The notes beneath the pieces are model-generated. The model searched no databases and was not told where the DNA came from. It saw only the letters and a program-made list of their open reading frames with translations. Shown piece by piece: positions 25,779 through 28,939 of a DNA stretch of 34,579 nt (position 1 is its first letter; every line of letters starts with the position of its first letter). The stretch lies in contig JAQIDC010000046.1 in NCBI GenBank assembly GCA_027858235.1, forward strand, positions 1 through 34,579, given 5' to 3'. The translations under genes and the position numbers were made by a program. Source of the stretch: Patescibacteria group bacterium. GTDB taxonomy: Bacteria > Patescibacteriota > Patescibacteriia > Patescibacteriales > BM507.

Positions 25779-26432
25779 ATGAAAAAAGGATTAATAATAG
25801 ATAGGGTTATTAGTGATAGAGTGAAAGGATTTTCTTATAAGGAAATCAGCGATAAATATGGTATTTCAAAAAGTACCGCATCTTTGTGGCTGAAAGATGT
25901 TAAGCTTAGTAATGATGGTGAAGAAAGAATAAGTTTTTTGAGTGAGTCCGGAAGAAAAAAGGCCGCTAATACAAATAAAGAGAAAGCAAAAAATAGATTT
26001 CTTAAAGTAGTTGAAAATTGTAAGACTTTGACTATTAACCCCAGGAAAGAAAACGAAGATTTAAAAATTTATTTAGCACTTCTTTATTGGGGTGAGGGTG
26101 CAAAGACAGGAAGGAGAATGATGTTTATAAATTCAGACTCTGAAATGATTAAAACTTTCCTATATCTCTTGAGAAAGTCTTATCCTGTGGATGAAGATAA
26201 ATTTAGAGCAGTTTTACATCTCCATGATTATCATGATCAAAATAAGATGATAAAATATTGGTCAAGCTTAACTGCTATTTCAAAAGAAAAAATTAGTATT
26301 TACAGGAAGAGTAATACGGGAAAACAAAAGAAAGATAATTATCAGGGTTGTATTTCAATAAGATATGGAGATGTGAAAATAATGGATGAAATTTTTATTA
26401 TTATAGATAGATTTAAAAAAATATATAAATAA
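25779..26432 (+). CDS. HTH protein with LAGLIDADG-like C-terminal region
   Basis: 217 residues. Residues 1-50 form a helix-turn-helix (GFSYKEISDKYGISKSTASL, then WLKDV) like that of resolvases and phage regulators. A Lys-rich linker follows, then LKIYLALLYWGEGAKTGRRM and INSDSEMIKTFLYLLRKSYP with HLHDYHDQ. I associate the YxxLLYWxEGxK pattern with a widespread LAGLIDADG-like family of CPR and archaea; this is recognition by eye. It may be a regulator derived from a homing endonuclease, or an active nuclease. Its last 26 codons overlap, on the other strand, the readthrough end of the serine recombinase frame, and tRNA-Trp begins four bases after its stop. Confidence 0.7.
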   Translation: MKKGLIIDRVISDRVKGFSYKEISDKYGISKSTASLWLKDVKLSNDGEERISFLSESGRKKAANTNKEKAKNRFLKVVENCKTLTINPRKENEDLKIYLALLYWGEGAKTGRRMMFINSDSEMIKTFLYLLRKSYPVDEDKFRAVLHLHDYHDQNKMIKYWSSLTAISKEKISIYRKSNTGKQKKDNYQGCISIRYGDVKIMDEIFIIIDRFKKIYK

Positions 26433-28166
26433 CATGCGGGTGTCGTATAGTGGTAGTACAGGGCTCTCCAAAAGCTCTAGCGTGGGTTCGATTCCTACCA
26501 CCCGTGCAAGATAAGATTTGAGTTTATCAGGATTAGCTGAAAGCTCGAATATAAGCGTCAATTTAGGTGTTCCATTAAGTATTTCATCATAGGTTGGTGT
26601 CTTCTCAAAGACAAGCCCGAATAAGGCTTGTCTTTTTGTTAGATTATCAATGTTTAACAGTATTTCAGCGGGGTGTTCCATTATTTTTTTGGCTTCTTTC
26701 AGAAAGTTTGAAATATCATATTCAGTGATTTCAACTTTATTTCTTTGTGTCTGGGCATTTTTAATATCTACTTCCAATTGTTCAACTTTTTCTTCTAATT
26801 TGTTCATAACAATAGCGCTTGTTGCTTTTTCAATTTTTTCAATTATGTTTGCTTGTTCAAGTTTTAGGTCCGACACAATAAGATTAGCTTGTGATGAAAA
26901 ATGTGCAAGTTCTTTTTGTCTTTCGCGGTATTTATTGATAAATGATAATTCAAGTGCTCTTATTTGTTCAGGGCGGAATTTTATTGATTCAATATATTTT
27001 GTGATATTTTCTTCAAATTCTTTTTTGTTTATGCCTATATATTTATGTTTTCGGGCACAATGATATGTCGGAAAGCCATTTCCTGATTTTCCTTTGGGAG
27101 AGCTACCTAAAAAAGGTTTTTTGCAATTAGGACATAATATAAATTTGTAAGGAAAAAGAGGATTATTTTTTTGTCTCAGGGTTATTTGTTTATCAGGATA
27201 ATAATCGTATAAAACCTCATATTTTTCATCTCCCAGGTCTTTTACGAATATCTTGCCCCTATTTGCCTTATTGAACATTTCTATAGCGACTAGTCCTTCA
27301 TATTTTGCCTTAATTGGCCTGTATTTCGTCCATTTCCTTATTAGTACTCCGCAGTAAGTTGTATTCCGTATATCCCTTTGCATTTTCTTGATAGTTAAGG
27401 GATTGTTGCCCAGTATTTTCAAAACATTTTCGTGAGATTTATCCCATTTGTTGTAGCCTTTTGTTCTAAAGCCCATAGCATTAACTTTATTGACTATTTC
27501 CTGGTCTGTAAAATTGCCAGACGAACGCATTTCAAAAATTTTAATCCAATATTTAGCTCGTTCAGGATCAGGAATTTGAATACTTTTCTTTTTATTACCA
27601 GCATAAGTTCTTTTAATTTTAAATCCGTCCGTGGCTGAACCAATGTGATAGCCGTCAGCTGTTAATTCTATTTGTCGCCCAATGGTTCTAGTTAAAATAT
27701 TTCTTACTTCTTGATTACTATAATCAGCCATTAAGTTTTCAGCCATACCGCTTGGAGAATAGCGGGACCAGTTATATTCAAAACCGACGTGTTCTAGTGT
27801 GTTCTGAGTAGGTTGGATTAATCCTGCGCTGTCAATTAATTCGACACCGTGTTTTGCTAATTCACGTTTTATTTCTCCATATGGAAGTGTACCTCCTCGA
27901 GTAAAGCGATCAATGCTTCTGAATATTAGATAATTTACTGCTCCCGGGTGATCTTTAATGTATCGCATTACTTCACCGTCAAAAATAGGTCGGTATTCTT
28001 TTCGTCCAGAAAATGGTTCTTTGAACACCTTGTTGTCTGGTAAAATATTTAGATTTTTTTTAATTGCTATATCCCGACATATCTTTTCTTGCGTATCAAG
28101 GCTTTCACCCTCTTGGGCTTGTGTAGCAGTGCTAACACGGCAATAGATGATACAGTTTTTTTGCAT
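26355..28166 (-). CDS. Large serine recombinase (integrase-type), C terminus fused through tRNA-Trp
   Basis: 603 residues. Site-specific recombinase of the large serine family, joining attP and attB through a Ser-DNA link. The catalytic domain begins IIYCRVSTATQAQEGESLDT with the nucleophile at S12; FRSIDRFTRGG is the second resolvase signature. The recombinase domain (about 170-310) is followed by a zinc ribbon (ILCPNCKKPFLGSSPKG.. YHCARKH) and a coiled coil (about 420-500). Sequence typical of the family ends near LTLIFELSANPDKLKSYLA. From about residue 553 the frame reads the antisense strand of tRNA-Trp (ARVVGIEPTLELLESPVLPL) and then of the neighbouring gene. The last ~51 residues are therefore chromosomal readthrough; the native stop codon appears to be lost at the junction. 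Confidence 0.88.
   Translation of the reverse strand: MQKNCIIYCRVSTATQAQEGESLDTQEKICRDIAIKKNLNILPDNKVFKEPFSGRKEYRPIFDGEVMRYIKDHPGAVNYLIFRSIDRFTRGGTLPYGEIKRELAKHGVELIDSAGLIQPTQNTLEHVGFEYNWSRYSPSGMAENLMADYSNQEVRNILTRTIGRQIELTADGYHIGSATDGFKIKRTYAGNKKKSIQIPDPERAKYWIKIFEMRSSGNFTDQEIVNKVNAMGFRTKGYNKWDKSHENVLKILGNNPLTIKKMQRDIRNTTYCGVLIRKWTKYRPIKAKYEGLVAIEMFNKANRGKIFVKDLGDEKYEVLYDYYPDKQITLRQKNNPLFPYKFILCPNCKKPFLGSSPKGKSGNGFPTYHCARKHKYIGINKKEFEENITKYIESIKFRPEQIRALELSFINKYRERQKELAHFSSQANLIVSDLKLEQANIIEKIEKATSAIVMNKLEEKVEQLEVDIKNAQTQRNKVEITEYDISNFLKEAKKIMEHPAEILLNIDNLTKRQALFGLVFEKTPTYDEILNGTPKLTLIFELSANPDKLKSYLARVVGIEPTLELLESPVLPLYDTRMLFIYFFKSIYNNKNFIHYFHISISY
26436..26506 (+). tRNA. tRNA-Trp (anticodon CCA)
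   Basis: 71 bases. Acceptor GCGGGTG pairs with CACCCGT (G-U at the first pair), anticodon loop CTCCAAA gives CCA, the T arm is GTGGG-TTCGATT-CCTAC, and the discriminator is G. No CCA is encoded. The D arm is short (TCGTATAGTGGTAGTACA). The serine recombinase frame on the minus strand runs through it, so the tRNA probably marks an integration site. Confidence 0.95.
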
Positions 28167-28188
28167 ATTGTTAATTTATTTATTAATC

Positions 28189-28314
28189 AAAAAGGGCGTA
28201 GTTATCCTGCTTTGAACCCAACTACCAAAAGATAATTGAAGCAGGGACTACGCCCTTTTCGGATTGCAATAAATAAAAAATTGCAATAAAAAATCTTTTG
28301 GTTAAATTGGGTTC
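28189..28314. other. Interleaved inverted repeats, pseudoknot-type element 1
   Basis: Helix 1 pairs 28190-28201 (AAAAGGGCGTAG) with 28248-28259 (12 bp) and extends inward through CCTGCTT 28206-28212 / AAGCAGG 28239-28245. Its 24-24-base apical loop (28214-28237, starting GAACCCAACT) pairs with a segment downstream of the hairpin: GAACCCAA with 28307-28314 and ACCAAAAGAT with 28293-28302. The two helices are interleaved, which is pseudoknot topology. Between them are two copies of ATTGCAAT (28263-28270, 28280-28287). It lies just upstream of the recombinase start on the minus strand. RNA or single-stranded DNA function is open. Confidence 0.75.
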
Positions 28315-28357
28315 ATAGTTATATTAACAGTAGTTTTTAAAAATTTCAAGTTTGTGT

Positions 28358-28510
28358 TTAATTTAGGTTGGAATTTTTCTTTTCTATCCAAATTTCAAAA
28401 AGCACATCAGCCAACTGATCGTGTAGTATGCGAAGTTCGTCAATTTGTTTGTCCGACATATATTGACCCGCTTCTCCTAATTCATTTTTAAAATCTGTAA
28501 ATGATAACAT
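28358..28510 (-). CDS. 50-aa protein upstream of the serine recombinase
   Basis: A 50-codon gene reading MLSFTDFKNELGEAGQYMSD, then KQIDELRILHDQLADVLFEI and WIEKKNSNLN. It is helical and acidic and looks like small proteins that accompany recombinases or phage genes (pattern FxxFKxxLGxxGxxxSDxQIxxLRxxxxxLADxLxxxW). Its stop lies 44 bases before the outer arm of pseudoknot element 1 on the same strand, and the recombinase follows, so the three may share a transcript. Function unknown. Coding is supported by the amphipathic pattern more than by length. Confidence 0.6.
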   Translation of the reverse strand: MLSFTDFKNELGEAGQYMSDKQIDELRILHDQLADVLFEIWIEKKNSNLN

Positions 28511-28548
28511 AATAAAAATTTAAGTGGGGGGGGTGGGGTGGTTCGAAT

Positions 28549-28935
28549 TTAATTTTGAGAATCCGACTTTGAAGTTTTAAGAGCTGTATCCGCGGTTTCT
28601 TTTGTAGCTAGCCTATGGTTTTTGAAAGGGTTAGGTCTTTTCTCTCTGTTTGCCCAAGACAATATATGTGCTGGACTTTTGCCATCCTTGTAGGCGAATA
28701 AATGACAATCTGGAAATTCGCACTTAGTAACAGATTGAGACGTGCCCTCGCTACATTCAAAACATCTTTTACGGATAATTTTTATTAATGAGCCCTTTCC
28801 CATCTTTTTCCCCATTCGGTATGTATAAAAATGACAATCAATTTTAGCACAATTTTTTACTTCCCCTACTTGCTTATCACAACACCAAAGACAGTAGGCA
28901 CGAATTGATTTTAAAGGAGTTGGTATGTTCTTCAT
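28549..28935 (-). CDS. Cys-rich protein with two tandem CxxC...EVxxC...YRxGK-type units
   Basis: 128 residues. Unit 1 is IRAYCLWCCDKQVGEVKNCA then CHFYTYRMGKK; unit 2 is IRKRCFECSEGTSQSVTKCE then CHLFAYKDGKS. Each has CxxC, a later C and DCH(F/L)(Y/F)xY, consistent with two zinc knuckles. Similar double motifs occur in small phage and mobile-element proteins; I cannot assign a biochemical role. The C-terminal 40 residues are polar and disordered-looking. It starts four bases after the stop of the 49-residue RHH-like gene, so they form an operon. A G-rich tract (28526-28542) separates it from the next small gene. Confidence 0.65.
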   Translation of the reverse strand: MKNIPTPLKSIRAYCLWCCDKQVGEVKNCAKIDCHFYTYRMGKKMGKGSLIKIIRKRCFECSEGTSQSVTKCEFPDCHLFAYKDGKSPAHILSWANREKRPNPFKNHRLATKETADTALKTSKSDSQN

Positions 28936-28939
28936 ATTT

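Follow-up and report, generated by a model that had tools for sequence, protein, structure and literature searches.

What is the set of interleaved inverted repeats that lies directly upstream of a large serine recombinase (LSR) gene in contig JAQIDC010000046.1 of a Patescibacteria group bacterium, and does it work as RNA or as DNA? The contig, 34,579 nt long, was analysed as a whole and is called the window here. Comparative sequence analysis supports both helices of the element, folding of the leader strand, a promoter in register with the structure and association with the recombinase gene. Judged from aligned sequences, the existence of a structured-RNA family is nearly certain, and the element is best read as belonging to a family that has not been catalogued before and whose attenuator layout is unusual. 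The reading favoured, with modest confidence, is a bistable attenuator leader that would control recombinase expression.

The recombinase leader on the minus strand is 127 nt long. In it, helix S1 (11+10 bp) interleaves with a second helix, S2 (15 bp plus 7 bp, with a U-tract at its end). Its parts are as follows:

28187..28315, minus strand, whole RNA element, matched by the family model with 76.2 bits
28305..28315, minus strand, C1, 5' strand of S1; pairs with 28213-28223, with covariation
28293..28302, minus strand, C2, second part of S1; pairs with 28224-28233
28263..28287, minus strand, linker hairpin; its arms (28280-28287 / 28263-28270) are two ATTGCAAT octamers
28247..28261, minus strand, A, 5' arm of the terminator-like helix S2, CGAAAAGGGCGTAGT
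28239..28245, minus strand, B, 5' arm CCTGCTT; pairs with 28206-28212
28224..28233, minus strand, C2', within the S2 loop
28213..28223, minus strand, C1', within the S2 loop
28206..28212, minus strand, B', 3' arm AAGCAGG
28188..28202, minus strand, A', 3' arm of S2 running into the U-tract, CCCTTTTTG; T run at 28189-28193

The original prediction, a pseudoknot-type element made of a hairpin and a complementarity interleaved with it, had the coordinates right. From its 12-bp plus 7-bp hairpin, the 7-bp helix B (28206-28212 / 28239-28245) stands, and the longer helix A was extended to 13 Watson-Crick bp (28190-28202 / 28247-28259), or 15 bp counting G-U (28188-28202 / 28247-28261). The loop complementarity, given as 8 + 10 bp, keeps its 10-bp half (28224-28233 with 28293-28302), but the other half is 11 bp long including G-U (28213-28223 with 28305-28315), and only a 2-nt bulge on one side separates the two. 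The two octamers described in the linker are present and form a fourth helix, the 8-bp linker hairpin. The S2 hairpin loop of about 44 nt is far above standard terminator size, and an AU-rich stretch extends from A' to the recombinase ATG at 28166. As had been supposed, chance is an unlikely source of such pairing. With nested folding, the real sequence folds far better than shuffled ones on both strands (z-scores of -6.4 on the minus and -6.0 on the plus strand, equalled by 0 of 200 shuffles). The element is the top interleaved helix pair across the 34.6-kb window, with 23 bp and a length-plus-GC score of 32, against best scores of 20-28 in 40 whole-window shuffles.

Recombinase relatives were gathered across the class and the phylum, and also by alignment query in named genomes. 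The nearest LSR relatives (45-53% identical; loci L040, L041, and L085-L092 carry the closest recombinases) are without the leader and alone would suggest no conservation; more distant ones have a leader with wholly different letters. At locus L057, GCTGACAAGTAAA pairs with TTTACTTGTCAGC, the latter within the loop of GATATAAAAGGGCAACTTGGG/CCCAAGTTGTCCTTTTATGTT, and at L042, TGGACACAATC pairs with GATTGTGTCCA. A geometric search set a clear group of about 15 leaders apart from the rest. When 14 leaders were aligned, two-sided changes were found in 20 of 25 pairs and 90.6% of the cells were paired; with one side slid by 1-3 columns, the same leaders gave 6-10 pairs and 40-50% paired. A covariance model was then used in which only helix A (S2) was paired and S1 was not modelled as pairs. 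An alignment of 55 matches revealed double changes in 33 of 38 pairs, with 333 double-change cells versus 85-141 in slid controls, and 92.5% of the A:A' cells were paired. C1 of S1 covaries in 11 of 12 column pairs, and this signal is independent and not circular because the model paired only S2. The C2 and D helices covary too in the 55 sequences; the linker region of other members carries a different hairpin or the D helix. Compensatory changes, which the original prediction would have expected in relatives, are present in both interleaved helices, as in an H-type pseudoknot. The 5' end of a member pairs with its own loop at -21.1 kcal/mol, against -10.1 kcal/mol with the loops of other members, and the own loop ranks among the top 3 of 67 for 59 of 67 members. 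For the additions from the phylum scan it was first in 10 of 12 (L235 fails and L236 is fourth); L224 is from the same genome as seed L078, so that 9 of 11 fully new loci rank their own loop first.

By this model, 29 of 111 order genomes carry the element, as do 34 of 380 in the class sample and 18 of 379 in the phylum sample; these samples overlap and differ in E limits, the genomes are mostly metagenome-assembled, and the model E-values are rough. There are 74 family matches in Patescibacteria, and 71 of them have a serine recombinase gene downstream on the same strand (59 of 62 in the first set, the exceptions being L172 and the weak matches L194 and L207, and 12 of 12 among the phylum-scan additions). 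The distance from RNA to recombinase is mostly up to about 45 nt; otherwise a small ORF or short insertion lies between them (a small ORF in 13 cases, a foreign gene in one). Recombinases led by family members are as little as 22-30% identical. Among 81 loci of recombinases most like that of the window, only L096 has the leader, its sequence being that of L057. Leader and protein do not track each other strictly, and the leader is therefore a separable module. A second copy of the RNA was found in the genome of the window (G000:C64, locus L196, 2830-2953, minus strand), with a recombinase beyond it. This copy sits between a rolling-circle Rep-like gene and the recombinase, and an opposite-strand gene for a methyltransferase-like protein of 236 aa, which looks like an insertion, intervenes before the latter. 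Scans of viral and genome contigs with single proteins gave no close relatives. The phage collection contained no family member, and two pattern hits on viral contigs proved to be non-members.

Two further features precede the structure:

28321..28349, minus strand, sigma-70-like promoter; -35 TTGAAA at 28349-28344, 17-nt spacer, TG-extended -10 TAATAT at 28326-28321
28314..28315, minus strand, predicted transcription start, 7 nt past the -10 and at most 1 nt from the first base of C1

The first base of C1 is exactly at position 7 past the -10 in 27 of 57 members, and a sense promoter in the same register scores at least 9 of 12 in 42 of 53 members, compared with 14% of shuffles. This register and enrichment place the predicted first base of the transcript at the start of the structure. 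On the antisense strand, sigma-70-like promoters occur no more often than by chance (4 of 53 members versus 14% in shuffles). A wobble pair on the leader strand reads as A-C on the opposite strand, and the cells of helix A contain 56 G-U versus 5 A-C on the leader strand. The summed helix energy is -47.3 kcal/mol on the leader strand versus -35.3 kcal/mol on the other, and 51 of 55 members have the better value on the leader strand. Since that strand was used to build the model, the comparison is slightly biased, but so large an effect can hardly be explained in another way. The wobble-pair asymmetry means that the leader strand folds and that the element acts as RNA rather than DNA. Leader-strand folding, a start at the 5' end of the structure, and the position of 71 of 74 matches before a serine recombinase together strongly favour a regulatory RNA that would act on recombinase expression, one of the functions initially proposed. 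Two other candidate modes of action were rejected. A leader peptide or leaderless ORF from a 5' ATG/GTG does not suit the many members without a start codon there, and the +1 lies at or beyond the ATG. Sequestration of a Shine-Dalgarno site was set aside, with an SD-like site in 1 of 50 members and, among 25 other window genes, in only 5.

S2 is followed by a T run of at least 4 in 43 of 53 members, and the family has the make-up of an intrinsic terminator, with a G+C-rich hairpin and a U-tract before the start codon. Folding order and near-equal energies were computed with nested folding models. In transcripts that end before A', S1 is predicted in 52 of 53 members (median of 31 cross pairs, -43.7 kcal/mol), and at full length the predicted minimum is S1 in 38 and S2 in 14. 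The forced folds are nearly equal across the family, with means of -44.7 kcal/mol for S1 and -42.2 kcal/mol for S2. For the growing transcript of the window, the computed minimum is S1 (-37 kcal/mol) from 28213 to 28195 and S2 (-44 to -47 kcal/mol) at 28189, in the U-tract.

According to the proposed mechanism, transcription would start at the first base of S1, and the emerging 5' segment C1-C2 would pair with C2'-C1' into the long hairpin S1, whose apical loop would contain arm A. Once A' and the U-tract have been transcribed, A and A' could pair as S2, giving an intrinsic terminator immediately ahead of the recombinase start codon. The polymerase would pass with S1 and stop with S2. The number of cross pairs is 20-38 when C2 and D are formed, and linkers of 0-3 nt to C' and A' are frequent. 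Because complete S1 holds arm A in the apical loop and the linkers are short, the complete forms of S1 and S2 should exclude each other on grounds of geometry; a partial form of C1 and S2 only is sterically possible and would be stacked end to end. With S1 and full S2 in competition, the leader would be a bistable attenuator by which recombinase synthesis is kept low, possibly in a conditional manner. We infer that S2 acts as terminator and S1 as antiterminator, and that the choice between them is biased by some factor. Candidates for this factor would be the recombinase, a small element protein, and polymerase speed; auto-control by either protein is speculation.

Several points weigh against the attenuator. 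The closest relatives of the window LSR, at 45-53% identity, manage without the leader. The full-length leader of the window favours S2 over S1 by about 9 kcal/mol and so may be no more than a plain terminator that lets little transcription through. The start site, termination, and read-through are predicted from sequence, and nested folding cannot score a combined pseudoknot. Such a pseudoknot could be constitutive, with the C1 part of S1 and S2 coexisting in a stack, the RNA 5' end buried at the junction, and no switching; it would then stabilise the mRNA, insulate the recombinase start from read-through, or cause partial termination. The mRNA leaders of the IS10 and IS200 transposases do similar jobs. 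There is 0 nt between C1' and A' in 25 of 53 members, which is ideal for coaxial stacking, and the 5' end of the RNA falls exactly at the C1'/A' junction. With C2 and D formed (20-38 cross pairs) and linkers of a few nt, however, the full forms should not be able to coexist, and C2 and D matter because both covary. We regard a constitutive pseudoknot as possible, although rather unlikely. The original name, pseudoknot, is right for the topology, but a switch fits better than a static form because the full helices should be unable to coexist in many members, for length reasons, and the bistable attenuator is preferred since S1 and S2, when complete, are expected to be mutually exclusive.

A free-standing non-coding RNA of about 125 nt that would bind the recombinase or take part in recombination, placed like the IS110 bridge RNA, is considered unlikely. 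It would explain why the element has its own promoter and a terminator-like end, with both ends sequestered, and why it is strictly associated with very divergent serine recombinases. However, many related recombinases lack the element, a small ORF (13 cases) or the foreign gene separates it from the recombinase, and no informative match to it exists near the tRNA-Trp gene or elsewhere in the genome; serine recombinases are known to work on DNA without RNA. It is slightly less probable still that the RNA is more than a leader, namely a partner of about 125 nt through which the serine recombinase, by binding it, would control or direct what it does itself; if true, it would be the first RNA component for serine recombinases. 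Control by antisense RNA, as in attenuators of pT181/pIP501-type plasmids, would share the logic of a long 5' helix against a terminator, but convergent promoters are at 4 of 53 versus 14% in shuffles; a trans-encoded RNA could still serve, and this control is very improbable overall. Least probable is a DNA element, that is, a binding site, att site, or rolling-circle or transfer origin that folds as single-stranded DNA. Palindromes beside a recombinase and the second genome copy adjoining a Rep-like gene would suit it. The wobble-pair strand asymmetry, the +1 register and the retention of pairing in spite of sequence change argue against it. The earlier suggestion of a DNA platform for the recombinase or the RHH-like protein is not supported, as sequence changes while pairing is kept, and neither is that of a single-strand DNA structure for transfer or replication, in view of the promoter register and the strict recombinase link.

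Rfam 15 recognized only two tRNAs at threshold in the window and nothing credible up to E 10. At 18 member loci it recognized only rRNA, tRNA, and, outside the element, one LOOT RNA (RF03000; L180, 2234-2355, plus strand), about 600 nt from a recombinase leader. A literature search that covered sources other than subscription journals and preprints gave no description of such a leader. The replication attenuators of pT181/pIP501 type, in which a long 5' helix competes with a terminator, likewise precede a mobile-element gene, but here the gene is a recombinase gene and antisense promoters are only at chance level. Leaders of IS10 and IS200 transposases have a structured 5' UTR by which less of a DNA-moving enzyme is made, as may be the case here, but with a different structure and with genes that are not for serine recombinases. 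Intrinsic-terminator attenuators and riboswitch expression platforms share two alternative folds of the 5' leader, one of them a hairpin with a U-tract before the gene; unlike them, the putative antiterminator here uses none of the terminator's stem bases and instead holds one terminator arm within the apical loop. No conserved aptamer-like core was seen in the family leader. A riboswitch candidate whose terminator loop pairs with the preceding hairpin, proposed to prevent termination (PMC11109978, doi 10.1093/nar/gkae248), is similar in that a terminator stem-loop can pair with upstream RNA; compared by description and not homology, it belongs to folate one-carbon metabolism and involves no recombinases. 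The IS110 bridge RNA is likewise structured and lies in the 5' region of a gene for a site-specific recombinase (PMC11208158), but that gene is of the IS110-type DEDD/Tnp20 class, in contrast to the Resolvase and Recombinase domains of the window protein, and the loop here pairs with the RNA's own 5' end, with no evidence of DNA guides. The role of a guide to target DNA was set aside for lack of matches in the genome; comparison of the element with its own genome gave no informative second match, with att sites unmapped. The family is widespread and linked strictly to serine recombinases, in a phylum of mostly uncultured members with little-known RNA biology, and offers a testable answer to how integrated elements hold a genome-rearranging enzyme low. 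The topology, in which an antiterminator would begin with the first base of the transcript and trap one terminator arm in its loop, is unusual for an attenuator. It could be incorporated in systems that express serine integrases, enzymes in wide use for genome engineering.

The genes around the leader are the following:

26355..28166, minus strand, LSR led by the RNA, with Resolvase (PF00239) and Recombinase (PF07508) domains
28358..28510, minus strand, 50-aa ORF upstream of the leader

The LSR is 603 aa long; PF00239 (47.5 bits) and PF07508 (26.4 bits) are both above cut-off, and a zinc ribbon (PF13408) scored below it. Its frame crosses the whole of a tRNA-Trp gene in antisense (26355-26507), which would be expected of an element inserted at this tRNA. 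The same holds for relatives, whose frames end in a tRNA gene read in antisense (tRNA-Glu at L059 and L074). Integration at tRNA genes, with the recombinase C-terminus altered by it, is probable. Small ORFs resembling the 50-aa ORF directly precede recombinase genes of relatives. In L061 and L108, another H-type pseudoknot was noticed in the leader of a small ORF, at -249 to -181 from the recombinase start. It is formed by GCGGGAGA/TCTCCCGC with AATGCCTTTCT/AGGGAGGCATT, followed by TTTTT, and stands out against shuffles; it was set aside as unrelated to the family and is perhaps a second leader type.

A G-rich run, GGGGGGGGTGGGGTGG, unusual for DNA of 33% GC, lies at 28526-28541 between the 50-aa ORF and a Cys-rich 128-aa ORF. 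Element genes at 28549-30402 are P0002 (the Cys-rich protein of 128 aa) and P0003 (334 aa, with zinc-binding C-terminus). The family search gave nothing above cut-off for either, and P0003 has no relative in the order's remaining 110 genomes. A 34-nt inverted repeat, 82% complementary (30472-30505 / 30569-30602), lies shortly upstream of the 334-aa ORF and is possibly an element end or a terminator.
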